A stretch of 64,000 nt of DNA from the NCBI RefSeq assembly GCF_001766235.1, contig NZ_CP015164.1:1206501-1270500 (forward strand). Reading direction: 5' to 3'. Origin of the DNA: Acetobacter ascendens. GTDB lineage: Bacteria; Pseudomonadota; Alphaproteobacteria; Acetobacterales; Acetobacteraceae. A program made the translations under genes and the position numbers. Below are positions 52,015-64,000 of this stretch, piece by piece (within the stretch, counting starts at the first letter, position 1; each line of letters opens with the position of its first letter). The notes under the pieces were generated by a model, which saw only the letters and a list, made by a program, of their open reading frames with translations, did not search any database and was not told where the DNA came from.

Positions 52015-53671
52015 TCTCACACTTGAGGCAATTTCAGGTCATTTTGTAGAGTTCAGTCATCCCACAGGAGCCCGATCTGGAATATTGACGATATTCTGCT
52101 TCTGGCGGCGGGTTCTGAACGCAGTGAGGGTGTCACGGCCTGAGAAGGCAGTGTTGGTGGAAGCTATGTGGTCTGTGCACTGTCTGTTTCTTCAGATGGC
52201 CTGCCGGAGCCTTCGCAATCGTGCATGAGCGAGGGCGAATTCATGCTGACAGGGGAACATGTCCGGCATGGACAGGACAATCCGACGGACGCTGAGCGTT
52301 ACACGTGTCGCGATTTTGAGCAGTCGTGCGCGTATGGTGCCACAGGTCGCCGTCTCCAGGCTGGTCTGGCCAAGGGCCAGTCTTTGCAGAGCGGTCAGCA
52401 GGACATAGGCTGCGGCCGAGAACCACAGCCGGAGCTGGTTGGCCCGGATGGTGTGGGACGAGGTCCTGTCTGAGAACAGATCCATCTGGCATTCCTTGAT
52501 GCGGTTTTCCATATCCCCGCGTGCGCAGTAAATCTGTTCGTAGAGATGGCGGGGGTCGGACATTCCCTGCGGTAGCGTGGTGACAATAAAGCGATGATAG
52601 CGGTTGCCGTGGCGCCATTCGGCCTTGGCCACCACCCGCCTGCGGCGCGTCCAGCTGTCCTTTGTGATCCAGTCAAAGGAGGCAAAGCCGCGCGCAGCTC
52701 TGCCTGTCGTGGCGGCTTCGTCACGAACCTCAGCGGACAAAGAGGCAATCCGGTCATACAGGCGGGTGTTGCCTGCAAGCCCAAACAGGAAGTCAACGTG
52801 GTTGTCTTCGCACCATGTCATCAGACTGTCCCGGGCGAAACCGCTGTCCCCACGCACCAGGATACGCACCCGGGGCCAGCGGCTCCTGATCTGCTCCACG
52901 ATCCGGCGGATGTCTGCCAGTGCTTCCTTCCCCGGGTCCCTGTCTGCCGTGCGCAGGGTAGCGCTGAGGAGATGGTCCCCGCAGAAGACATACAGGGGAA
53001 GATAGCAGTTATGGCCGTAATATCCATGAAAGGCGCGGCCTTCCTGATGGCCATGGATACGGTCATCGGTGGCATCCACATCCAGAACGATCCGGGCGGG
53101 TGCGTGCTCATGCTGGTCAAGGAAGAGCGTGACGAACAGGGTAGCCAGGGCCTCATGATCAGCAATGATGCGGCAGTAACGATCTGCCTGCTGCCCACTG
53201 CGCTCTAGCCGGTTCAGCGTGGATTTTCCTGCCAGTGCCGCACAGTTGGCCCGGCTTCCTGACAGACGTCCCGATACCAGACCCATGACAGGATCATGAC
53301 GTAAAGCGTCATGGTCATTAAGGTCTTCATAGCCCAGTGCCAGGCCCATGATCCGCTGACGGACAAGGTCTTCAACCCGGTATTCCACAAAGGCAGGATG
53401 CCGCTTATCGCGAAAACAGGCAGCAAAGCGGCGGCTGAGACCCAGAATGTCATCAGCCTGCTTCACCAGAATGACGCCCCCATCCGAACTCATGCGACCC
53501 CCGTCAAAACGGGCCACAACACGCCGTCCACAGGAGGCTGGAAACTCATACGCGCCTGCGCTACACTCTGTCTGCATCGGGTTTTCTTATAGCTTATGAA
53601 AAATTCTTTTGTGCAAAACAAACTTTTTCATAATCTAACCCGATGTACAACCCTTCTGTGAGATTTCCGCG
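52015..53671 (-). mobile_element. IS1380-type element, copy 5, lacking its last 8 bp
   Basis: 1,657 bp. Right end intact (CCGCG at 53667-53671) and followed by TCAA. The left end lacks CGCGGATT because the IS110 element abuts it; unlike copy 3, the missing eight bases are not found beyond the IS110 pair, where the flank is unrelated DNA. Hence a recombination or deletion joined these parts. Confidence 0.88.
52192..53577 (-). CDS. IS1380-family transposase, copy 5
   Basis: 461 residues, intact. Allele: DPVMGLVSG, SGQQADR, FLDQHEHA, TTGRAARG, RHPAFVEY, a combination not seen in the other copies. Confidence 0.9.
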   Translation of the reverse strand: MQTECSAGAYEFPASCGRRVVARFDGGRMSSDGGVILVKQADDILGLSRRFAACFRDKRHPAFVEYRVEDLVRQRIMGLALGYEDLNDHDALRHDPVMGLVSGRLSGSRANCAALAGKSTLNRLERSGQQADRYCRIIADHEALATLFVTLFLDQHEHAPARIVLDVDATDDRIHGHQEGRAFHGYYGHNCYLPLYVFCGDHLLSATLRTADRDPGKEALADIRRIVEQIRSRWPRVRILVRGDSGFARDSLMTWCEDNHVDFLFGLAGNTRLYDRIASLSAEVRDEAATTGRAARGFASFDWITKDSWTRRRRVVAKAEWRHGNRYHRFIVTTLPQGMSDPRHLYEQIYCARGDMENRIKECQMDLFSDRTSSHTIRANQLRLWFSAAAYVLLTALQRLALGQTSLETATCGTIRARLLKIATRVTLSVRRIVLSMPDMFPCQHEFALAHARLRRLRQAI

Positions 53672-54012: not shown

Positions 54013-54083
54013 CATCGGGTTAGATTATGAAAAAGTCTGTTTTGTACAAAATAATTTTTCATAAGCAATAAACGAACCCGATG
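54013..54083 (+). promoter_or_regulatory. Nested inverted repeats that enclose the transposase start codon
   Basis: CATCGGGTT (54013-54021) pairs with AACCCGATG (54075-54083), whose last three bases are the transposase ATG. Inside, TTATGAAAAA (54025-54034) pairs with TTTTTCATAA (54055-54064). A transcript entering from outside the element would fold and bury the start codon, while one starting inside would not. The arms are conserved in all six copies, apart from one change in copy 4, while the loop varies. Confidence 0.65.
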
Positions 54084-55466
54084 CAGACAGAGTGTAGCGC
54101 AGGCGCGTATGAGTTTCCAGCCTCCTGTGGACGGCGTGTTGTGGCCCGTTTTGACGGGGGTCGCATGAGTTCGGATGGGGGCGTCATTCTGGTGAAGCAG
54201 GCTGATGACATTCTGGGGCTCAGCCGCCGCTTTGCTGCCTGTTTTCGCGATGAACGGCATCCCGGCTTTGTGGAATACCGGGTTGAAGACCTTGTCCGTC
54301 AGCGGATCATGGGCCTGGCACTGGGCTATGAAGACCTTAATGACCATGACGCTTTACGTCATGATCCTGTCATGGGTCTGGTATCGGGACGTCTGTCAGG
54401 AAGCCGGGCCAACTGTGCGGCACTGGCAGGCAAATCCACGCTGAACCGGTTGGAGCGCAGTGGGCAGCAGGCAGATCGTTACTGCCGCATCATTGCTGAT
54501 CATGAGGCCCTGGCTACCCTGTTCGTGACGCTTTTCATGGACCAGCATGAGCGCGCACCCGCCCGGATCGTTCTGGATGTGGATGCCACCGATGACCGTA
54601 TCCATGGCCATCAGGAAGGCCGCGCCTTTCATGGATATTACGGCCATAACTGCTATCTGCCCCTGTATGTCTTCTGCGGGGACCATCTCCTCAGCGCTAC
54701 CCTGCGCACGGCAGACAGGGACCCGGGGAAGGAAGCACTGGCAGACATCCGCCGGATCGTGGAGCAGATCAGGAGCCGCTGGCCCCGGGTGCGTATCCTG
54801 GTGCGTGGGGACAGCGGTTTCGCCCGGGACAGTCTGATGACATGGTGCGAAGACAACCACGTTGACTTCCTGTTTGGGCTTGCAGGCAACACCCGCCTGT
54901 ATGACCGGATTGCCTCTTTGTCCGCTGAGGTTCGTGACGAAGCCGCCACGACAGGCAGAGCTGCGCGCGGCTTTGCCTCCTTTGACTGGATCACAAAGGA
55001 CAGCTGGACGCGCCGCAGGCGGGTCGTGGCCAAGGCCGAATGGCGCCATGGCAACCGCTATCATCGCTTTATTGTCACCACGCTACCGCAGGGAATGTCC
55101 GACCCCCGCCATCTCTACGAACAGATTTACTGCGCACGCGGGGATATGGAAAACCGCATCAAGGAATGCCAGATGGATCTGTTCTCAGACAGGACCTCGT
55201 CCCACACCATCCGGGCCAACCAGCTCCGGCTGTGGTTCTCGGCCGCAGCCTATGTCCTGCTGACCGCTCTGCAAAGACTGGCCCTTGGCCAGACCAGCCT
55301 GGAGACGGCGACCTGTGGCACCATACGCGCACGACTGCTCAAAATCGCGACACGTGTAACGCTCAGCGTCCGTCGGATTGTCCTGTCCATGCCGGACATG
55401 TTCCCCTGTCAGCATGAATTCGCCCTCGCTCATGCACGATTGCGAAGGCTCCGGCAGGCCATCTGA
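54081..55466 (+). CDS. IS1380-family transposase, copy 6
   Basis: 461 residues, intact. Allele: DPVMGLVSG, SGQQADR, FMDQHERA, TTGRAARG, and DERHPGF where others have DKRHP. Confidence 0.9.
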   Translation: MQTECSAGAYEFPASCGRRVVARFDGGRMSSDGGVILVKQADDILGLSRRFAACFRDERHPGFVEYRVEDLVRQRIMGLALGYEDLNDHDALRHDPVMGLVSGRLSGSRANCAALAGKSTLNRLERSGQQADRYCRIIADHEALATLFVTLFMDQHERAPARIVLDVDATDDRIHGHQEGRAFHGYYGHNCYLPLYVFCGDHLLSATLRTADRDPGKEALADIRRIVEQIRSRWPRVRILVRGDSGFARDSLMTWCEDNHVDFLFGLAGNTRLYDRIASLSAEVRDEAATTGRAARGFASFDWITKDSWTRRRRVVAKAEWRHGNRYHRFIVTTLPQGMSDPRHLYEQIYCARGDMENRIKECQMDLFSDRTSSHTIRANQLRLWFSAAAYVLLTALQRLALGQTSLETATCGTIRARLLKIATRVTLSVRRIVLSMPDMFPCQHEFALAHARLRRLRQAI

Positions 55467-55651: not shown

Positions 55652-56323
55652 TCGATCACCTCTCCCGTTTGCCACTGGATTATTTTTCTAAGCGGCATGT
55701 GGGGGATATTCTTTCGCGCTTTAATACCTTAGCTACAATTCAAAAAACAATTACTACAGATATGGTGCAAGCCTTTATGGATGGCATAATGGCTATCGGC
55801 ATGGCCATTATGCTGTTTCTTTATGGTGGTTGGCTAGGCATTGTTGCCATGGTGGCAACAGGCTTGGATATTTTGCTGCGTTTATTTACCTATAATATTT
55901 ACAAAGAAATTTCAGAAGAACAAATTGTTGTCGATGCTCGTCAACAAACTCATTTTATTGAAACAATTCGCGGCATGGCAAGCATAAAACTTTTAGGGTT
56001 ACGTGAACGACGCCGCACAACATGGCTTAATCTTTTAGTAGATAGTATAAATATTAGGCTTCGTTTACAGCGTTATGATTTGTTTTATGGTCGGATAGGA
56101 GATCTTATATTTGGAGCTGACCGTCTTATTATGATGATTCTGGGCGCAGGTGCTGTGATGAAAGGCCAAATGACAGTAGGTATGCTTGTGGCTTTTCTCA
56201 CCTACAAAGACCAATTTGCAACGCGTATTGGAAGTTTAATAAGCAGTGGTTTTCAATTACGTATGCTGAATGTTCAAACAGAACGTTTGTCTGATATTGT
56301 TATGACATCACCTGAAGCAGCTA
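55652..56323 (+). pseudogene. Bacteriocin-type ABC exporter, part 2 (membrane domain)
   Basis: About 223 residues: DHLSRLPLDYFSKRHVGDILSRFNTLATIQKTITT, helices around GIMAIGMAIMLFLYGGWLGIVAMVA, VVDARQQTHFIETIRGMASIKLLG, and GMLVAFLTYKDQFATRIGSLI, all standard for peptidase-containing ABC exporters of double-glycine peptides. The coding sequence is AT-richer than neighbouring genes. Interrupted at CTAG by IS630. Confidence 0.85.
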
Positions 56324-57376
56324 GAGCATAATCCGATCAGTCTGGTTCATATCCAGCGGCGGTGAAGCACGCGGCGGCCTGGCGATGAGAGATATCGTCA
56401 ATTGCTCCACAGACGGTATTTTGAAGAGCGTCGAGGGTTCGCGGTGCCACCCGTCTGATCCACGCCTTCATTTTGGCGAAGATGTTTTCGATCGGGTTGA
56501 AATCAGGACTGTAGGGCGGCAGGAACAACAACCTGGCGCCGACTGCCTCCACAGCCTCGCGGGCAACGGCTCCTTTATGGGCGGGCAGATTGTCCAGAAT
56601 GACGACGTCTCCCGGTGATAAGGTTGGAACGAGCACCTTGCGGGTATAGGCGGCAAACCATTCGCCGGTCATTGGGCCGTCCAGCATCATCGGTGCTGTC
56701 ATGCCGGAGAGGCGCAGCCCGCCGATGAACGTCGTGGTTTTCCAGTGCCCGTGGGGCACGGACATCCGACAGCGCGTGCCCCGTTGTGACCGCCCCCGCA
56801 GGCGAGCCATCTTCGTTGAGACGGCTGTTTCGTCGATGAAGATCAGACGGGTCGGATCAAGGTCAGGCTGGCTGTCAAACCAGACCTCGCGCTGCTGTGC
56901 GACGTCGGGCCGTGTCTGCTCGCTGGCGTGCGCCGTTTTTTTTGATGGTCATGTCGTGACGGTCGAGACAGCGCCAGATCGTGCTCGGCGCAAAGCGGAC
57001 ACCGTGTTCCGCTGCAAGTGTCTCCGCCAGTTCGACAAGGGAAATATCGGCCTTTGTTTCAATCGCGGCCAGCAGGAAGGTTGACCACGCTTCAATCCGG
57101 TGAGAACGGCGATCGCCGCCCTGTTTAAGCGCATGGTCACGACCGCTGGCCTGCCACTCAGCAACCCAGCGGATAACGCTCGACGAAGACACACCAAAAC
57201 GAACCGCCGCCGCACGACGGGTCATGCCAGAGGCAACAGCCGCAATCGTGCGGCGGCGAAGGTCAGCAGACAGGGCTCGGGTCATACGGGCCGGCCTCCA
57301 TACCGGCACATAGTATGAATCAGATTTCGACCAGTATGGGAATCTTAAAATGAACCTATTAGATCGGATTATGCTC
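56324..57376 (-). mobile_element. IS630-family element, copy 2
   Basis: 1,053 bp, same as 28274-29326, with TA flanks at 56322-56323 and 57377-57378. Removal restores SPEAAS + SPSIITD in the exporter. Confidence 0.9.
56337..57309 (-). CDS. IS630-family transposase in two frames
   Basis: Same two-frame gene as copy 1 (56875-57309 and 56337-56810), again with eight A at the frame junction. Only isolated base changes separate the copies. Confidence 0.82.
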
Positions 57377-57378
57377 TA

Positions 57379-58091
57379 GCTCTCCGTCCATTATCACCGA
57401 TACCCCCTTTCATGCGGAGCAAGCTGCAGGCAGCCTTACATGCACCCACATTTCTGCTCGCTACGGAAAGCATGAACCTTGGGTTTTTAAGAACATTTCT
57501 CTTCATATTCCCGCAGGAAGTAGCATTGCAATCATTGGGCCATCAGGTTGTGGTAAAACAACATTTCTAAAAACTCTTATGGGGTTAATTCAGGCGGACG
57601 AAGGCACAATCTGCTTGAACAGTACGGATATTAACACCCTCACATTAGAGGGTTACCGTAATCGTATTGCAGGTGTTTTACAGGATGATGGCTTATTTTC
57701 TGGATCTATTGCTGACAATATAAGCGGTTTTTCCGAAAATGTTGATGAACCATGGCTACTGGAATGCGCAAAAAAAGCCGCCATTCTTCACGATATACAA
57801 CGTATGCCAATGGGTTTTGAAACATTGGTAGGAGACATGGGCAGCGGCTTATCTGGCGGCCAAAAACAACGCATTATTCTTGCAAGAGCACTTTACCGTC
57901 GTCCTGAAATTTTATTTCTGGATGAAGCGACAAGCCATTTAGATGAAACAACAGAACAAGCCGTAGCTTCCGCTCTTCATGATATGCAGATTACACGCAT
58001 TATGGTTGCTCATCGGCCAACCACAATTGCTCATGCAGATGCGGTATATAGATTTCAGAGTAATGAAATACTGAAACAGCACATGAACTAA
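57379..58091 (+). pseudogene. Bacteriocin-type ABC exporter, part 3 (ATPase domain)
   Basis: About 237 residues with a complete ATPase domain: GPSGCGKTTFLKTLMG (Walker A), GVLQDDGLFSGSIADNI (Q-loop), GSGLSGGQKQRIILARALYRRP (signature), ILFLDEATSHLD (Walker B) and VAHRPTT (H-loop). An ATG at 57579 gives a truncated frame without Walker A. The whole exporter (53779-58091 minus insertions) would be about 530 residues from the broken 5' end. Confidence 0.85.
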
Positions 58092-58390: not shown

Positions 58391-58489
58391 GGAGGGTTCT
58401 AAAAACCCTCCTTTTGGTCGATTATGAAATCATAACCCATTGATATTGTTGCAGACAAAAAGTCTTAAATAGGGTTTTTCGAACCCTCC
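58391..58489. repeat. 99-bp MITE-like inverted repeat unit
   Basis: GGAGGGTTCTAAAAACCC (58391-58408) and the complement of GGAGGGTTCGAAAAACCC (ending 58489) are the same as one end of the type C element, facing each other around about 60 bp of unrelated AT-rich DNA. No clear flanking duplication (ATCT versus ACAT), so it may be a non-autonomous derivative or a fusion of two ends. Confidence 0.5.
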
Positions 58490-58680
58490 ACATCACTGCT
58501 ACAGACTGGTTCAAGCCCTAACTATAATATGCGCTATTTCCCGCTTCCTTGAAGTAGAGCAGATCATTACACAAGAAATCATCACTCTATTCACAAACCA
58601 GCCACCAATGCATCTTAAGCTTTAAAAACAACACTTCTTCAATATCACCAAATCAAATATATTTATTCCCAAAATAAAAA

Positions 58681-59100
58681 TCATTCATATTCTTCAGTTA
58701 GATGTGGCCGCATCATCGTAATAATGTCCGGCTTGATTGCATTTGTATAATGGTTATCAAAATGTGTACGAATGTAATTTGCAACATTGGCTATTTGTTG
58801 ATCATCCAAGGTGACGGCAAACCATGGCATAGCGCCCATGCCGTTAAGCACAACAGATGCTACATATTCCGCACTCTGTAATTTGGGATTTTTTGCCAAG
58901 GCAGGAAACTGGGCACCAGCACCTTCTGCACCCTTTCCATCTGACATATGGCAACTCTGGCAGATGTGCTTATAAATATCTGCACCATCTGAAAGGGATT
59001 GTGTTTTATCTATTACATTACCAGAGCTATCAGCCCATGCTGTTGTTGATGTAAAAATCAGAAGTAAAAAAAAGGTAGTATAAAAAAACGTATTACGCAT
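58681..59100 (-). CDS. Periplasmic c-type cytochrome
   Basis: 139 residues. Signal peptide MRNTFFYTTFFLLLIFTSTTAWA (cleavage near residue 23), then a class I cytochrome c: haem site CQSCH at about 49-53, and GAMPWF as axial Met region (Met near 93), ANYIRTHF as the last helix. Its ATG shares one base with the stop of the amine oxidase (TGATG), so the two are coupled and the cytochrome is the likely electron acceptor of the oxidase. Confidence 0.87.
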   Translation of the reverse strand: MRNTFFYTTFFLLLIFTSTTAWADSSGNVIDKTQSLSDGADIYKHICQSCHMSDGKGAEGAGAQFPALAKNPKLQSAEYVASVVLNGMGAMPWFAVTLDDQQIANVANYIRTHFDNHYTNAIKPDIITMMRPHLTEEYE

Positions 59101-60704
59101 CAGGTCGCCCCCATTATACGTTGATGCAAGCGCGTAATAGCATCCAGGGCAGATAGAATGGCACCTTCCTGCCAACATCCAACATAAGAAGCATGCTCAC
59201 CTGCCAGCACAATGCGCTTATCTATACTGCAAAGTGTTTTATAGTGTGTTCGCCGCGCTTCCTCTGTCCACATGGAACAACATCCCATAACCCATGGTGT
59301 CCGGCTCCATGCAAAGCTCACACCATTTGAAAACTCCTTATGATATTGAGGATGAATAATACCTCCCTGTTCCAAAGCACGTTCCAGACGTTCTTGGGGA
59401 GGCATTCCAACATAGTCATACGCAGGCGTGCCAAATAGATAGCCCCCCAGCAATACTGCCGGTCCTTTCCTGAAATACCCATGACTGGGATAGGAAATCT
59501 GGCTGATCGGCTGATCTGTAAAACTGATGCCGCCGTAAATCTGCTCATCCTCTTCCCAGAATCTACGATTGAACTCCAGTCCAATTTTAACAGAAGATGC
59601 ATACGGTACAGCCAAGATTGCAGCTTTCATCGCATCTTCCACCTGCACATCCAGTTGTGAGAGAATGGAAAGAGGAATAGTGCAGACACAATAATCAGCC
59701 TGCATCTGTCTGACAGCGCCACCACGTACCATATCGTTATAAGTAACGGTTACACCCTGTTCATTCTGGGAAATCTGTGTAACTTTACAGTTCAGCTTAA
59801 TCAGATCTTTTACTTGACGAGCAAAACCCTTACCAATCTGGTCCATGCCCCCCACAGGCTGGAACAGTGTTGTCTGCATATCAATACGTTGGTTAAATGC
59901 CATCCAGTCCCACAAACCGGATTTCATGATGTCTTTACGTGCCAATACATCCGATGGCACAGATGCACCATTCAAACCGCCACCTTGCGCACGCTCAAAA
60001 CCACGACGCCATGAACTGATAGTACCTTTTGTATAAGAAAGGTCTGGCGTAAGAGCCCCCCATGATTTCATGGCTTCAATTAAATAATGATGCTCGTCTT
60101 CACTGACGATATCGTCCAACTTATGCTGATTGATTGCCTTGGCGAGAAGTTCTGCCGTAAATCCGTAAAAATCGGCAGAAAACTCCCTGTACCTTACGGA
60201 TTTACCACCAAAAGTATCACTTGAATGCATCCACGTGTTATGATTGACCTCAATAAACGGCTCAAGCTCAATCCCAAACTTCCGGCAATAATATAGCAAT
60301 CCTTGATGGTGATACGGAATACGCCACGGACCCGGATTGAAATAATTCCCTTTTGCAAAATGAACTTTCTGTGACGCGCCCCCCAATTCCGTTACGGTAT
60401 CTCCCGCACGCAAGCTGATATTACGGCCACCACTGCGGTTCTGAAACTCCAGAATCTGAACATCATATCCAGCCTTGCGTAATTCGTAGGCCGATAACAT
60501 ACCTGCCAGCCCCGCCCCGAGAACCAGAATTCTGGTTCCCTTTTTGGCGCCAGTAAGAGAGGGAGGATGTGTAAAATCCGTTCCGACGGCATGCCCCATA
60601 GTGGTCATGGCTTGATAGAGCGCCACACTACCTGCCAATGCACCAATACGCGTAAGCAATTGCCGCCGTGTAAAAGGGAATGAATGATGAGGTTGTGACA
60701 TCAA
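59100..60704 (-). CDS. Tat-exported flavin monoamine oxidase/dehydrogenase
   Basis: 534 residues. Twin-arginine signal at the start (FTRRQLLTRIGALAGSVALYQ). FAD site LVLGAGLAGMLSAYELRKAGYDV followed by EFQNRSGGRN, and the C-terminal FAD block RIVLAGEHASYVGCWQEGAILSALDAI. This is the amine-oxidase (MAO/LAAO) superfamily. Export and the coupled cytochrome c gene suggest a periplasmic dehydrogenase that feeds electrons to the respiratory chain rather than making hydrogen peroxide. Substrate unknown: a polyamine, agmatine or an amino acid are candidates. 141 bases separate it from the hydrolase upstream. Confidence 0.85.
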   Translation of the reverse strand: MMSQPHHSFPFTRRQLLTRIGALAGSVALYQAMTTMGHAVGTDFTHPPSLTGAKKGTRILVLGAGLAGMLSAYELRKAGYDVQILEFQNRSGGRNISLRAGDTVTELGGASQKVHFAKGNYFNPGPWRIPYHHQGLLYYCRKFGIELEPFIEVNHNTWMHSSDTFGGKSVRYREFSADFYGFTAELLAKAINQHKLDDIVSEDEHHYLIEAMKSWGALTPDLSYTKGTISSWRRGFERAQGGGLNGASVPSDVLARKDIMKSGLWDWMAFNQRIDMQTTLFQPVGGMDQIGKGFARQVKDLIKLNCKVTQISQNEQGVTVTYNDMVRGGAVRQMQADYCVCTIPLSILSQLDVQVEDAMKAAILAVPYASSVKIGLEFNRRFWEEDEQIYGGISFTDQPISQISYPSHGYFRKGPAVLLGGYLFGTPAYDYVGMPPQERLERALEQGGIIHPQYHKEFSNGVSFAWSRTPWVMGCCSMWTEEARRTHYKTLCSIDKRIVLAGEHASYVGCWQEGAILSALDAITRLHQRIMGAT

Positions 60705-60845
60705 AGAATCCCGTCATTTTTGTATTCAGCGTTACCGAACTCTGCGGCAAACATTCCAAAGCATCATATGGAAAACACAAGAACCATGAAACTATTATAA
60801 AAATTCATGGATTTTACATATATCGCTTTACATAAATATATCTGT

Positions 60846-62090
60846 TCAAAATTCCTGATCCGCCATCAACACGGCATGCAGTATCACGTTGCTTCCGGCC
60901 GTTGCATCTTCCTGCGTTGCACTTTCTGCTTCGTTATGGCTGATACCCTGCCAACATGGCACAAAAATCATGGCGGTTGGCACAACCCTAGAAACATACA
61001 CAGCATCGTGCCCGGCGCCGGATACAATATCTTGCACGCTATAATTCAGCTCTTTCCCGCTTTCCCGAACACAGGCAACGCAGCGCTTATCAAAATGTAC
61101 GGCTGGGGAATTCCATGTCGGCATTATGCTGACCTCCACATCAGCCGCTTGCGCACATTCCTGCATACGGCGCAGGAAATCTTCTTCCATACCCTGCAAA
61201 GCCGCCTCAGATGGGTTACGCAAATCCACAGTAAAGCGCACTTCCCGCGGAACAACGTTGCTGCTGGCTGGAAACGCCGTGATAATGCCAATGGTACTCA
61301 GACCATCCGGCGCAAAGGCCTGCGCCACTGCATTTACCTGATCAATCATACGTGCGGCGACCAATAAGGCATCCTTACGCATGGGCATGGGGGTTGTGCC
61401 TGCATGTGCAGAGCGGCCGCGTACCACAACCTCATGCCAGCGCATGCCCTGCACGCCGGTTACAACACCTATGGTGCACCCTTTGGCTTCCAGCACAGGA
61501 CCCTGTTCAATATGCAGCTCAAAATATGCTGCCGCCGGATGCTGCCCGCAGTGTTCTTCTCCTACAAAGCCACCACGTTCCAGTTCCTGCCGCAACGTTA
61601 TGCCAGTTGCATCTGTCCTGCTGCCTGCAAATTCCTCTGTAAAAGCGCCACCAAAAACACCCGAAGCCAGCATGGGGGGGCTAAAGCGTGCCCCTTCCTC
61701 ATTTGTCCAGTTCACCACTTCTACAGGATGACGCGTGTGAATGCCTGCATCATGAAGCGCACGCAAAACCGCAATACCGCCCAATACGCCTAAAATGCCA
61801 TCAAAACGACCGCCTGTAACCTGGGTATCCAGATGGCTGCCCATCATAATGGGAGGCAGATCATTTTGCAGGCCGGCACGACGGGCAAACTGATTACCCA
61901 TAGAATCATAGGTAACAGTGCATCCGAACGCCTTGCAGGTTTGTTCAAACCATGCCCGAACCTGAAAATCTTCATCTGAAAGAGCAAGTCTGCATATACC
62001 ACCTTTTGCCGTTCCACCAAAAGCAGCGGTTGTGGTGAGATCATGCCACAGCGCCTGTCCATTCACTGTCAGATCGGCATATTGGCTCAT
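60846..62090 (-). CDS. Zn-dependent carbamoylase/allantoate amidohydrolase family (M20)
   Basis: 414 residues from the ATG at 62090, which has GGGACAGG just upstream; the longer frame would start with TTG at 62129. M20 motifs: MGSHLDTQVTGGRFDG (His-Asp metal site), NWTNEEGARFSPPMLASG (Glu-Glu), ELHIEQGPVLE, RGRSAHAGTTPM, and SGAGHDAVYVS with the distal His. Family members cleave N-carbamoyl amino acids, beta-ureidopropionate or allantoate. It lies downstream of an amidinohydrolase-family gene, so a ureido compound made by that enzyme is a plausible substrate. Confidence 0.85.
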   Translation of the reverse strand: MSQYADLTVNGQALWHDLTTTAAFGGTAKGGICRLALSDEDFQVRAWFEQTCKAFGCTVTYDSMGNQFARRAGLQNDLPPIMMGSHLDTQVTGGRFDGILGVLGGIAVLRALHDAGIHTRHPVEVVNWTNEEGARFSPPMLASGVFGGAFTEEFAGSRTDATGITLRQELERGGFVGEEHCGQHPAAAYFELHIEQGPVLEAKGCTIGVVTGVQGMRWHEVVVRGRSAHAGTTPMPMRKDALLVAARMIDQVNAVAQAFAPDGLSTIGIITAFPASSNVVPREVRFTVDLRNPSEAALQGMEEDFLRRMQECAQAADVEVSIMPTWNSPAVHFDKRCVACVRESGKELNYSVQDIVSGAGHDAVYVSRVVPTAMIFVPCWQGISHNEAESATQEDATAGSNVILHAVLMADQEF

Positions 62091-62125
62091 ATCCTGTCCC
62101 TTTTCTGTTTCAGGCGTTTTGGTAT

Positions 62126-63070
62126 TCAATATCCATGCATAACATCACACAACAAAGCCGGGCGCCCTCCCCGCTCCAGACATGCCACCATATCCGCTGC
62201 GTAACGGGCCTGCATTTCACGAGATGCCTCGGATGCAACATGCGGCGTAAGGATCACTCGTGGGTGTTGCCACAAGGCAGATTCAGCAGGCAGAGGCTCG
62301 GGCGTTACAACATCCAGCACTGCGCCACATAACGTGCCATCATCCAGTGCCTTGAGTAGGTCTTTCTGCACAACGTGTCTGCCACGGCCAACATTTACAA
62401 ATCCAGCACCTTTTGTAAGATGCTGGAAAAAATCAGAATCAATCAGCCCTTCTGTTGCAGGCGTTGCCGGTAACAGATTTACCAGAATATCCACTTCAGC
62501 CAAAAATCCGGGCAGCTTCTCTCTACCGCTCCAGACTGTTACGCCTTCCACACCGGAAGGCAGACGTTTCCATCCAGAAACACAAAAACCAAACCTGGCC
62601 AGATCCTGCGCAACAAAAGCGCCAAGATGCCCAAGGCCCATCACGCCCACTCTAGTTGTATCGGATGTGCGGCTGCATACATTATTGCGCCATATAGCGT
62701 GCTGTTGCTGGAGAGCCCATGTGCGAGCCCCCCTGAGAAGGCTGATGACTGCCCACAGCACATAATCCGCCATCAGGCGGGCTGTCTGCTCCCCGCCCAT
62801 ACGCACCAAGGGTACATTCTGCGGAAAACCCGGCAGGGAGAGCAGATGATCAACACCTGCTCCTGTGCATATAATGCCTTTCATATGGGCAAGGCATTCC
62901 ACATGCTCTGGTTCTGGTTTCCAGACCAAAGCATAATCATCAGGCTGCAATTGCCACATAGGGTCAACCCATGAGCAGACAGGAAGATCAGGCGCAACCG
63001 TAGCAAAAGCCTGCCGCCAGCTTTCAAAGACCTCATGGCCATCTGCGCTGATTACAATACGAGCAGGCAT
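62126..63070 (-). CDS. ghrA: Glyoxylate/hydroxypyruvate reductase A-like
   Basis: 314 residues, D-2-hydroxyacid dehydrogenase fold, close to GhrA. NAD(P) motif GVMGLGHLGAFVAQDL (about 145-160), catalytic Arg in VGRGRHVV, Glu in VVTPEPLPAESALWQHPRV and His in LTPHVASEAS. Reduces glyoxylate, hydroxypyruvate or another 2-oxo acid. Starts 36 bases after the amidinohydrolase gene; the hydrolase frame overlaps its stop. In this operon it may remove a 2-oxo acid or glyoxylate formed downstream. Confidence 0.85.
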   Translation of the reverse strand: MPARIVISADGHEVFESWRQAFATVAPDLPVCSWVDPMWQLQPDDYALVWKPEPEHVECLAHMKGIICTGAGVDHLLSLPGFPQNVPLVRMGGEQTARLMADYVLWAVISLLRGARTWALQQQHAIWRNNVCSRTSDTTRVGVMGLGHLGAFVAQDLARFGFCVSGWKRLPSGVEGVTVWSGREKLPGFLAEVDILVNLLPATPATEGLIDSDFFQHLTKGAGFVNVGRGRHVVQKDLLKALDDGTLCGAVLDVVTPEPLPAESALWQHPRVILTPHVASEASREMQARYAADMVACLERGGRPALLCDVMHGY

Positions 63071-63105
63071 TTGCTATTCCTTTCTTTGTAAAATCCCTAA
63101 AGCTT

Positions 63106-63969
63106 TTACAATGGCTGCCTGCGCAAAGGCATGGTCATGCAATGAATACTGCCGCCACCACGGGAAAACTGATTGAGCTCCGGATCAAGAACTGTCAGCC
63201 CTTCGGCACGCAGCATCTGGTTAATCCGCACAGAATGGCGCGGACTTACCACCCTATCTTTCCCTAAGGATAGTACGTTACACCCCATATCCCGCATGGC
63301 CTCACGATAGCTCACCGGCAGAATACGGATACCCTGTTCACGGAACCATTCCAGATCAGCTTCATCCAACACATCCACGGCAGCAATCGCAAGATTTTCC
63401 GCAACCATGCAGAAAATCACATCAAGATGAAGAAAATGCTCTGGAAAATGAAGCATCCGGCAGGTCCAGCCAGCCTCTTCAAACCAGCTGATAAATTCCG
63501 CTGCCCCTTTTGCATCGGTACGGCCACCACTCACACCAACTGCCAGCAGACCAGGACGGATGATATGAATATCCCCGCCTTCAATGCGCCCGGCGGTACA
63601 GGTGCGCCAGATTTCATCCGGTGCGTAAAAGGAACGAATTTCCTTTTCCTCTCCCACACGTTCCGGTCGAGAAAGATTTGTAACAACAGTGCCAAATGGC
63701 GTGGTTTGTGAACTGTCTCGCGTATAAACTTCGTACGGCATGTTTTCATGCGGCACAAGGAAATGGCAGGACACATCCTCGCTTTTAAGCGTTGAAACCA
63801 GTTCATCAAACTGAGTGCGCAAGGCGGTGCGATCTATGTTTCCGCCATGCGCCATTGTCTGAATAACAATATCGTTACTTGGAATCCATTCATAATAATC
63901 AGGCGGGCACAACAGAACATCTGCCAGCACACCGGTTTCGCTGTCTATAAACCACCTGTTTGCAGCCAT
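63106..63969 (-). CDS. Amidinotransferase/dimethylarginine dimethylaminohydrolase family protein
   Basis: 287 residues, beta/alpha propeller of the guanidine-modifying superfamily. MPYEVYTRDSSQTTPFG and AGRIEGGDIHII (substrate Asp and Glu-Gly-Gly-Asp), FLHLDVIFCMV (catalytic His), and RGGGSIHCMTMPLRR (catalytic Cys near 278) are all present. Such enzymes hydrolyse a guanidino group to a ureido group with release of ammonia or an amine. GGAATTTC precedes the ATG. First visible gene of a five-gene minus-strand operon; upstream genes may lie beyond the window. Confidence 0.85.
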   Translation of the reverse strand: MAANRWFIDSETGVLADVLLCPPDYYEWIPSNDIVIQTMAHGGNIDRTALRTQFDELVSTLKSEDVSCHFLVPHENMPYEVYTRDSSQTTPFGTVVTNLSRPERVGEEKEIRSFYAPDEIWRTCTAGRIEGGDIHIIRPGLLAVGVSGGRTDAKGAAEFISWFEEAGWTCRMLHFPEHFLHLDVIFCMVAENLAIAAVDVLDEADLEWFREQGIRILPVSYREAMRDMGCNVLSLGKDRVVSPRHSVRINQMLRAEGLTVLDPELNQFSRGGGSIHCMTMPLRRQPL

Positions 63970-64000
63970 GTCTTGAAATTCCTCAAGGTATCTGTTTCAG

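Follow-up and report, generated by a model that had tools for sequence, protein, structure and literature searches.

A putative two-module catabolic locus in Acetobacter ascendens: a predicted guanidino-acid core joined to an L-amino-acid oxidase-like flavoprotein and its cytochrome c

Introduction

Do five adjoining genes of an acetic acid bacterium encode one pathway for a guanidino compound, or have two units of separate origin come to lie side by side? The question is raised by a 64,000-nucleotide stretch of the 3.0-Mb genome of Acetobacter ascendens (contig 1, NZ_CP015164.1, positions 1,206,501 to 1,270,500; hereafter the window). One end of it, positions 58681-63969, encodes an arginine-deiminase-superfamily hydrolase, a D-2-hydroxyacid dehydrogenase, an M20-family amidohydrolase, a Tat-type flavoprotein and an exported cytochrome c. 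All five open reading frames (ORFs) are intact and lie on the minus strand. Their coordinates and their Pfam and NCBIfam families (PF02274, PF02826, PF01546/TIGR01879, PF01593 and cytochrome c) bear out the gene order and families of an original prediction made from the sequence alone. That prediction also joined the five proteins in a single route: periplasmic oxidation of an amine carrying a guanidino group, such as agmatine, followed by cytoplasmic conversion of the guanidino acid to a ureido acid and then to an amino acid.

The comparative analysis reported here divides the locus into two modules. The first consists of the hydrolase, dehydrogenase and M20 genes together with a divergently read half of the regulon beyond the window edge, and the second of the oxidase and cytochrome c genes. 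The locus is probably catabolic, with a core that acts on a guanidino acid and an add-on recruited from the known lao–cccA type. A metabolic link between the two modules can be offered only tentatively.

The deiminase–carbamoylase core

The hydrolase gene (63106..63969, minus strand) encodes a 287-aa protein of PF02274, a predicted guanidino-acid deiminase whose catalytic Asp, Glu, His, Asp and Cys positions are intact. Across an alignment of 31 sequences sharing 32-100% identity with the window protein, D85, R104, E130, R150, H181, D183 and C277 are invariant (31/31), and these occupy the positions at which arginine deiminase (ADI) has its catalytic residues and those that bind carboxylate. 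The catalytic Asp, Glu, His and Cys that characterize the ADI/guanidine-modifying superfamily were all found. By profile, the nearest solved relatives are DDAH, ArgZ-type proteins and ADI, with 2-nitroimidazole nitrohydrolase further off. The protein falls well short of the family cut-offs, scoring 64.5 bits against 489.1 for the ADI (arcA) model and 54.5 against 300, 54 against 450 and 42.5 against 340 bits for three DDAH models.

The M20 hydantoinase/carbamoylase-family amidohydrolase (PF01546, NF006769, TIGR01879) is encoded at 60846..62090 on the same strand. Its ORF is open from 62129, and comparison with orthologues suggests a start at a conserved ATG at 62090, which gives a protein of 414 aa. 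It exceeds the cut-off of the TIGR01879 hydantoinase/carbamoylase family (429.2 against 204 bits), and H99, D110, E144, E145, H206, Q209, H242, N291, R304, H374 and H398 are invariant in 9/9 proteins. Their spacing matches that in beta-alanine synthase, by which they comprise the ligands of the metal, the catalytic Glu, and the Gln, His, Asn and Arg that bind substrate. Between the two genes lies that of the D-2-hydroxyacid dehydrogenase (62126..63070, minus strand, PF02826, 314 aa). It had been called a GhrA-like reductase; against the GhrA equivalog model NF012013 the protein scores 204.7 bits, far below the cut-off of 403.

A passage from guanidino to ureido to amino acid is proposed here because the catalytic residues are conserved and because the hydrolase and M20 genes co-occur repeatedly in distant lineages. 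The LysR-associated divergent regulon would import an organic acid bearing a guanidino group through a TonB receptor and an amino-acid-type ABC transporter. The deiminase-like hydrolase would then convert the guanidino group to a ureido group with release of ammonia, and the M20 carbamoylase would cleave off the carbamoyl group, released as CO2 and ammonia, to yield an amino acid. The carbon skeleton may be processed by the dehydrogenase together with a 2-oxoglutarate oxygenase and a class II aldolase of the divergent half. The cytoplasmic half of the original route is retained in this conditional form. No PF00491 (ureohydrolase) match exists in the A. ascendens genome, and 9/14 control genomes do have one, so ureohydrolase cleavage of guanidino compounds seems not to be open to this organism.

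The oxidase–cytochrome c pair and its origin

The flavoprotein gene (59100..60701, minus strand, PF01593; ORF open from 60704) encodes 533 aa with the Tat-like motif TRRQLL. Its best PDB match is the L-amino-acid oxidase (LAAO) of Rhodococcus opacus (E = 1.3e-87), in which an Arg and a Tyr bind the substrate carboxylate. The window protein has R and Y at the aligned positions. In an alignment of 81 flavoproteins, comprising the window protein and the best 80 of the 155 relatives that the genome collection yielded, this Arg is present in 81/81 and the Tyr in 73/81 (seven have Phe and one a gap), and a Tat-like motif occurs in 74. By sequence, the protein is an LAAO homologue and a predicted cytochrome c-linked dehydrogenase, not an agmatine oxidase. 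The earlier assignment as a Tat-exported flavin amine oxidase is kept for the motif and the amine-oxidase fold and is revised for the closest relative.

This revision bears directly on the original route, in which one five-gene pathway would begin with periplasmic oxidation of agmatine or a similar guanidino amine and continue with the guanidino acid in the cytoplasm. The gene order in the window and the plausibility of deiminase plus carbamoylase chemistry favor such a route. It is nonetheless extremely improbable given a flavoprotein closest to LAAO, with its carboxylate residues conserved as above, that joins the core in only a few loci. The oxidation of an amine such as agmatine has accordingly been abandoned.

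The exported mono-haem cytochrome c (58681..59100, minus strand, one CxxCH) has 139 aa if translated from the ATG at 59100. Its ORF is open from 59178. We prefer the later start, as our own reading of the sequence, because the 26 codons ahead of it run over the last part of the oxidase gene and because what comes after it resembles a signal peptide. With the preferred starts the five-gene row overlaps at one point only, where the oxidase and cytochrome genes share 1 nt (TGATG), and the "partly overlapping" genes described earlier come down to this.

A cytochrome c gene starts within ~500 nt downstream of the oxidase in 78/80 relatives and lies within ~2 kb in the other two, and a RidA gene lies near the pair in 23/80. 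None stands beside the pair in the window. In Gluconacetobacter diazotrophicus a Tn5 insertion in lao, within a lao–cccA–ridA operon, abolished the formation of indole-acetic acid from tryptophan; the authors also note that the organization is common to Caulobacter and Xanthomonas and propose cooperation of the cytochrome with RidA (PMC5053998). Among flavoprotein amine oxidoreductases of the Tat type that have a cytochrome c gene next to them, several have been shown to be dehydrogenases (PMC12224317). By analogy with these enzymes, the window flavoprotein may convert a periplasmic L-amino acid to its 2-oxo acid and pass electrons to its cytochrome c. The respiratory coupling of the original prediction is thus maintained by analogy.

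The pair is joined to the core in only 3/21 loci of the genus, namely those of A. ascendens and of two relatives (L185 and L186) whose oxidases are 94 and 97% identical to its own. Viewed from the oxidase, the hydrolase is nearby in 1/80 loci, some of which lie on short contigs; the one is that of A. pomorum (L007, 94% oxidase identity), whose contig of 76,968 bases is as long as that of L186, so that the two are not independent. The two relatives (genomes G616 and G621) carry the operon copy plus a separate lao–cccA–ridA copy elsewhere in the genome, and A. ascendens has the operon copy only, at 1e-60. A midpoint-rooted tree of 49 oxidases groups the three operon copies as a single clade (support 100/100), which falls within the lao radiation of Acetobacter/Komagataeibacter and is distinct from the second copies carried by G616 and G621. 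The simplest reading of this tree is a single recruitment, without ridA, before these species split. The add-on in this species group would then be a copy of the known lao–cccA pair recruited downstream of the core. Four PF01042 matches occur in the A. ascendens genome, one of them below the cut-off, and the one of the four loci that was compared (L254) has no match to lao-type RidA at 1e-8. When the lao–cccA–ridA site of G616 was used as a 13-kb query against this genome, only ~1 kb at one end, the operon copy and an 81-base stretch matched. The exact five-gene set is a local combination.

Conservation of the core in Acetobacter and its family

Choosing ORFs by length proved unreliable in GC-rich loci, and the presence of genes was scored from tblastn and codon-trained calls. 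Of 49 genomes of the genus, 22 including that of A. ascendens match the hydrolase, 21 with orthologues of at least 73% identity and one with a 31% match. The 21 loci compared are the A. ascendens locus and 20 that were fetched, some of which stop at contig ends; one genome, G611, is counted although its gene is split in two frames. The regulon is found whole or in part in 21/49 genomes, 17 of them with M20. The LysR gene and both ABC genes are present in 21/21 loci, the TonB receptor and TIM-barrel genes in 20, the oxygenase in 19, the GhrA-like gene in 18, and M20 and the class II aldolase in 17 each. A gene order not conserved outside this strain had been named as what would refute the original prediction, and there the outcome is divided: the three-gene core is kept in 17/21 loci, and the five-gene order is confined to the few described above. 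In the G611 locus (L204), where the deiminase-like gene runs over two frames, the adjacent regulon genes match at full length.

From 200 genomes drawn from the family, 83 match the hydrolase at E 0.001, and 40 loci were fetched from these. Fifteen of them (L117-L131, 65-80% identity) retain the regulon to varying extents, with the ABC genes in 13, the aldolase in 12, LysR in 10 and the GhrA-like gene in eight. A search of ten of the fifteen (L118-L123 and L127-L130) for remnants of M20 found one, in L118, and a like remnant is present on a plasmid of Komagataeibacter saccharivorans (L273). In both, the remnant directly follows the GhrA-like gene, and its N- and C-terminal parts match with the middle missing. 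The other 25 loci (L132-L156, 47-54% identity) show a second context for the hydrolase, with a GlcD-like FAD oxidase in 19/25, an HpcH-type aldolase in 17/25 and an MFS transporter in 16/25; no GhrA-like gene was found near the hydrolase in any of the 25.

In other species a pyridoxal phosphate (PLP) aminotransferase with a Tat-like motif, recognized by eye, stands at the core, on the same strand in L117 and L123-L125 and on the opposite strand beside M20 in L187-L192 and L204. It is PRK09105-like, yet below the PRK09105 cut-off. Its presence here suggests, without showing, that the pathway includes a step outside the cytoplasm in which an amino acid is turned into its 2-oxo acid. An exported PLP aminotransferase would be unusual.

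Deiminase–M20 pairing in distant lineages

Pairing of hydrolase and M20 genes recurs, in patches, in unrelated proteobacteria, and many homologues of the hydrolase have no M20 partner. A search of 398 genomes of the phylum gave 16 matches at 1e-40, A. ascendens included, and in two of the 13 loci fetched (L208 and L210, hydrolase identity 36-37%) M20 lies directly beside the hydrolase. In L208 the pair is followed by aldehyde dehydrogenase and aminotransferase genes. Kinship of this aminotransferase with GntC, a guanitoxin enzyme, was considered and dropped: it scores 296.6 against 415 bits and is also below the plain aspartate aminotransferase model.

Plasmids supplied further pairs. Among plasmid records 22 match the hydrolase, two of them from vinegar and a fruit fly, and ten were opened. 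On the plasmids of Sinorhizobium medicae (pMl1, L271) and Phyllobacterium zundukense (L272) the hydrolase gene, two permease genes and M20 follow one another on the same strand, and a class III aminotransferase, a beta-keto-acid cleavage enzyme and a regulator are encoded divergently from them. The aminotransferase and the cleavage enzyme hint at a beta- or omega-amino acid as the product. Plasmids of S. meliloti and Rhizobium sp. 007 (L270 and L280) have a like layout, in which M20 was detected over only 63 and 29% of its length. The rows on these four rhizobial or nodule plasmids run amidase, binding protein, deiminase-like gene, permeases, M20. On a plasmid of the Rhodobacteraceae strain M382 (L278, 5935-14832) a LysR gene accompanies hydrolase and M20 genes that overlap by 4 nt, and a glycine-betaine-type transporter and then two PF00491 (ureohydrolase-family) genes follow downstream of M20, in what appears to be a guanidino-compound island. 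Searches around two distant pairs gave matches in 3/148 and 2/229 genomes, query genomes included. The rhizobial form was matched in 1/247 genomes of a single family, and that match is interrupted by one stop.

A wider proposal would join these occurrences into a pathway patchily distributed in Alpha- and other Proteobacteria. In it, a beta- or omega-guanidino acid would be degraded by an ADI-superfamily deiminase and an M20 carbamoylase, which in rhizobia would feed the class III aminotransferase and the beta-keto-acid cleavage enzyme. One Acetobacter lineage would have gained a periplasmic amino-acid dehydrogenase, through which the respiratory chain would receive electrons drawn from that same substrate. 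Taken as a whole, this proposal is rather doubtful.

Alternative readings

A number of observations weigh against the two-module guanidino-acid reading. M20 is missing from 4/21 loci of the genus and is intact in just 1/15 of the closer family loci; it is absent from all 25 of the more distant ones (0/25), so the hydrolase can also serve other routes. No M20 lies near the hydrolase in the other 11/13 phylum loci, nor in the stretch examined for four of the ten opened plasmid loci (L274, L275, L277 and L279). The ADI superfamily also holds a nitrohydrolase, and the window M20 passes two subfamily models named allantoate amidohydrolase, NF006769 (571.3 against 452 bits) and NF006771 (429.9 against 399 bits). 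Finally, a gap of 144 nt between M20 and the ATG of the oxidase leaves open separate transcription of the oxidase and cytochrome genes. A scan of 58400-61100 returned six promoter-like sites (6.9 in shuffles) and two terminator-like sites (2.4 in shuffles), no better than shuffled sequence, and with this gap a single transcript is neither shown nor excluded.

The names of the two M20 models invite a role in allantoin or hydantoin catabolism, with M20 as allantoate amidohydrolase and the GhrA-like neighbor reducing glyoxylate. Both names belong to broad subfamilies, not equivalogs, and NF006769 is passed by all three M20 proteins tested, those of the window, S. medicae and M382 (571, 613 and 631 against 452 bits). 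Against the AllC equivalog TIGR03176 the window protein reaches 251.2 of 597.75 bits; none of eight matches in the genome attains the allantoinase cut-off (best 276.8 against 357.85 bits), and the partner of M20 is an arginine-deiminase-type enzyme. Allantoin catabolism is therefore very improbable, and an exclusive role on allantoin intermediates, named beforehand as what would overturn the original prediction, is disfavored.

A different chemistry of the ADI superfamily, such as nitro- or halo-hydrolysis or action on an unusual ring, would make the pathway one that degrades a plant or microbial toxin instead of a guanidino acid. The 2-nitroimidazole nitrohydrolase of the same superfamily, the low scores of this subfamily with the ADI and DDAH models and the many homologues lacking an M20 partner speak for it. 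It is quite improbable in view of the invariance of the two Arg positions for the carboxylate and of every catalytic position, the recurrence of a carbamoylase as partner and the two ureohydrolase-family genes in the M382 cluster.

The most serious rival concerns the second module. The core may handle a guanidino acid while the oxidase and cytochrome, landed there by chance, oxidize L-amino acids in general or aromatic ones, as the lao cluster does with Trp. Oxidase–cytochrome pairs stand without a nearby hydrolase in 79/80 loci (some on short contigs), the operon copy falls as a single branch within the lao radiation, and the M20–oxidase gap is consistent with such a chance arrival. Nevertheless, the modules have been kept together in three genomes, across the oxidase divergence noted above, and elsewhere the Tat-like PLP aminotransferase, which by family would also turn an amino acid into a 2-oxo acid, occupies or adjoins this place. 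Chance adjacency is a real possibility, if short of probable.

Relation to known systems

The second module is of a known kind. It shares with lao–cccA–ridA of G. diazotrophicus, another acetic acid bacterium, a Tat-type LAAO followed by a cytochrome c (PMC5053998), and differs in lacking ridA, in being joined to the guanidino core and in having its operon copies in a clade of their own. With the cytochrome c-using flavoprotein amine dehydrogenases, NicA2 and Pnao among others, it has in common a Tat signal, here at the level of a motif, and an adjacent cytochrome c, taken in that study as the genomic sign of a dehydrogenase; those enzymes were identified through their likeness to NicA2 and have amines as substrates, whereas the window protein is LAAO-like (PMC12224317).

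The core is rated a variant of a known logic, and the deiminase–carbamoylase pathway itself appears to be undescribed. AguA and AguB, agmatine deiminase and N-carbamoylputrescine amidohydrolase, deiminate a guanidino compound and then remove the carbamoyl group. The core would follow the same order of steps with other families, PF02274 and M20, and with a predicted substrate that is an acid. Neither the AguA-family deiminase, presumably PF04371, nor the nitrilase-family amidase of the agmatine deiminase pathway is among the Pfam matches of the five proteins (E 0.001), the rest of the genome not having been searched. ADI, DDAH and ArgZ-type arginine dihydrolase share the superfamily and the catalytic residue positions with the hydrolase, which differs from them in lying far below the family cut-offs and in its genomic partners. 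No description of a deiminase–M20 operon was found in the literature searched, mostly outside subscription papers. One paper treats a purine route, and its retrieved passages contain no word beginning with "guanidin" (PMC4016543); in the parts consulted of a review of bacterial guanidine physiology the terms "ureido", "carbamoyl" and "guanidino" are absent (PMC12186494).

If the core works as read, it would be a second, independently built route that deiminates and then decarbamoylates guanidino compounds, with defined transporters, spanning acetic acid bacteria and rhizobial plasmids from legume nodules. Genes at present labelled "arginine deiminase family" or "allantoate amidohydrolase" would thereby acquire a function. 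The part of the locus that deserves testing is the deiminase–carbamoylase pathway. The respiratory add-on would illustrate how, in nature, a lao–cccA unit comes to be plugged into another catabolic operon.

Divergent genes and surroundings

The intergenic region toward the LysR gene begins at 63970..64000, with no strand assigned, and the regulator itself lies outside the window. Seven divergently read genes adjoin the hydrolase gene at window-equivalent positions 64286-72694. They encode the LysR regulator (64286-65239), an amino-acid-type ABC substrate-binding/permease fusion (65239-66816), an ABC ATPase (66668-67558), the TonB receptor (67705-69978), a xylose-isomerase-like TIM barrel (70008-70871), a DIOX_N/2OG-Fe(II) oxygenase, here called the 2-oxoglutarate oxygenase (70781-71917), and the class II aldolase (71924-72694). 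The oxygenase is similar to chains annotated as ethylene/succinate-forming enzyme and as iron/ascorbate oxidoreductase. Plant enzymes of the same superfamily hydroxylate homoarginine (PMC11018352), and this likeness is only a lead to the substrate.

Transposase-like ORFs, judged by eye, come after the class II aldolase gene. In the window, two near-identical 461-aa ORFs (52192-53577 and 54081-55466), transposase-like by eye, lie in opposite orientation ~500 nt apart. At 55669-58091 an ABC exporter gene is in pieces (55669-56331 and 57579-58091), which are separated by opposite-strand ORFs that are likewise transposase-like by eye.

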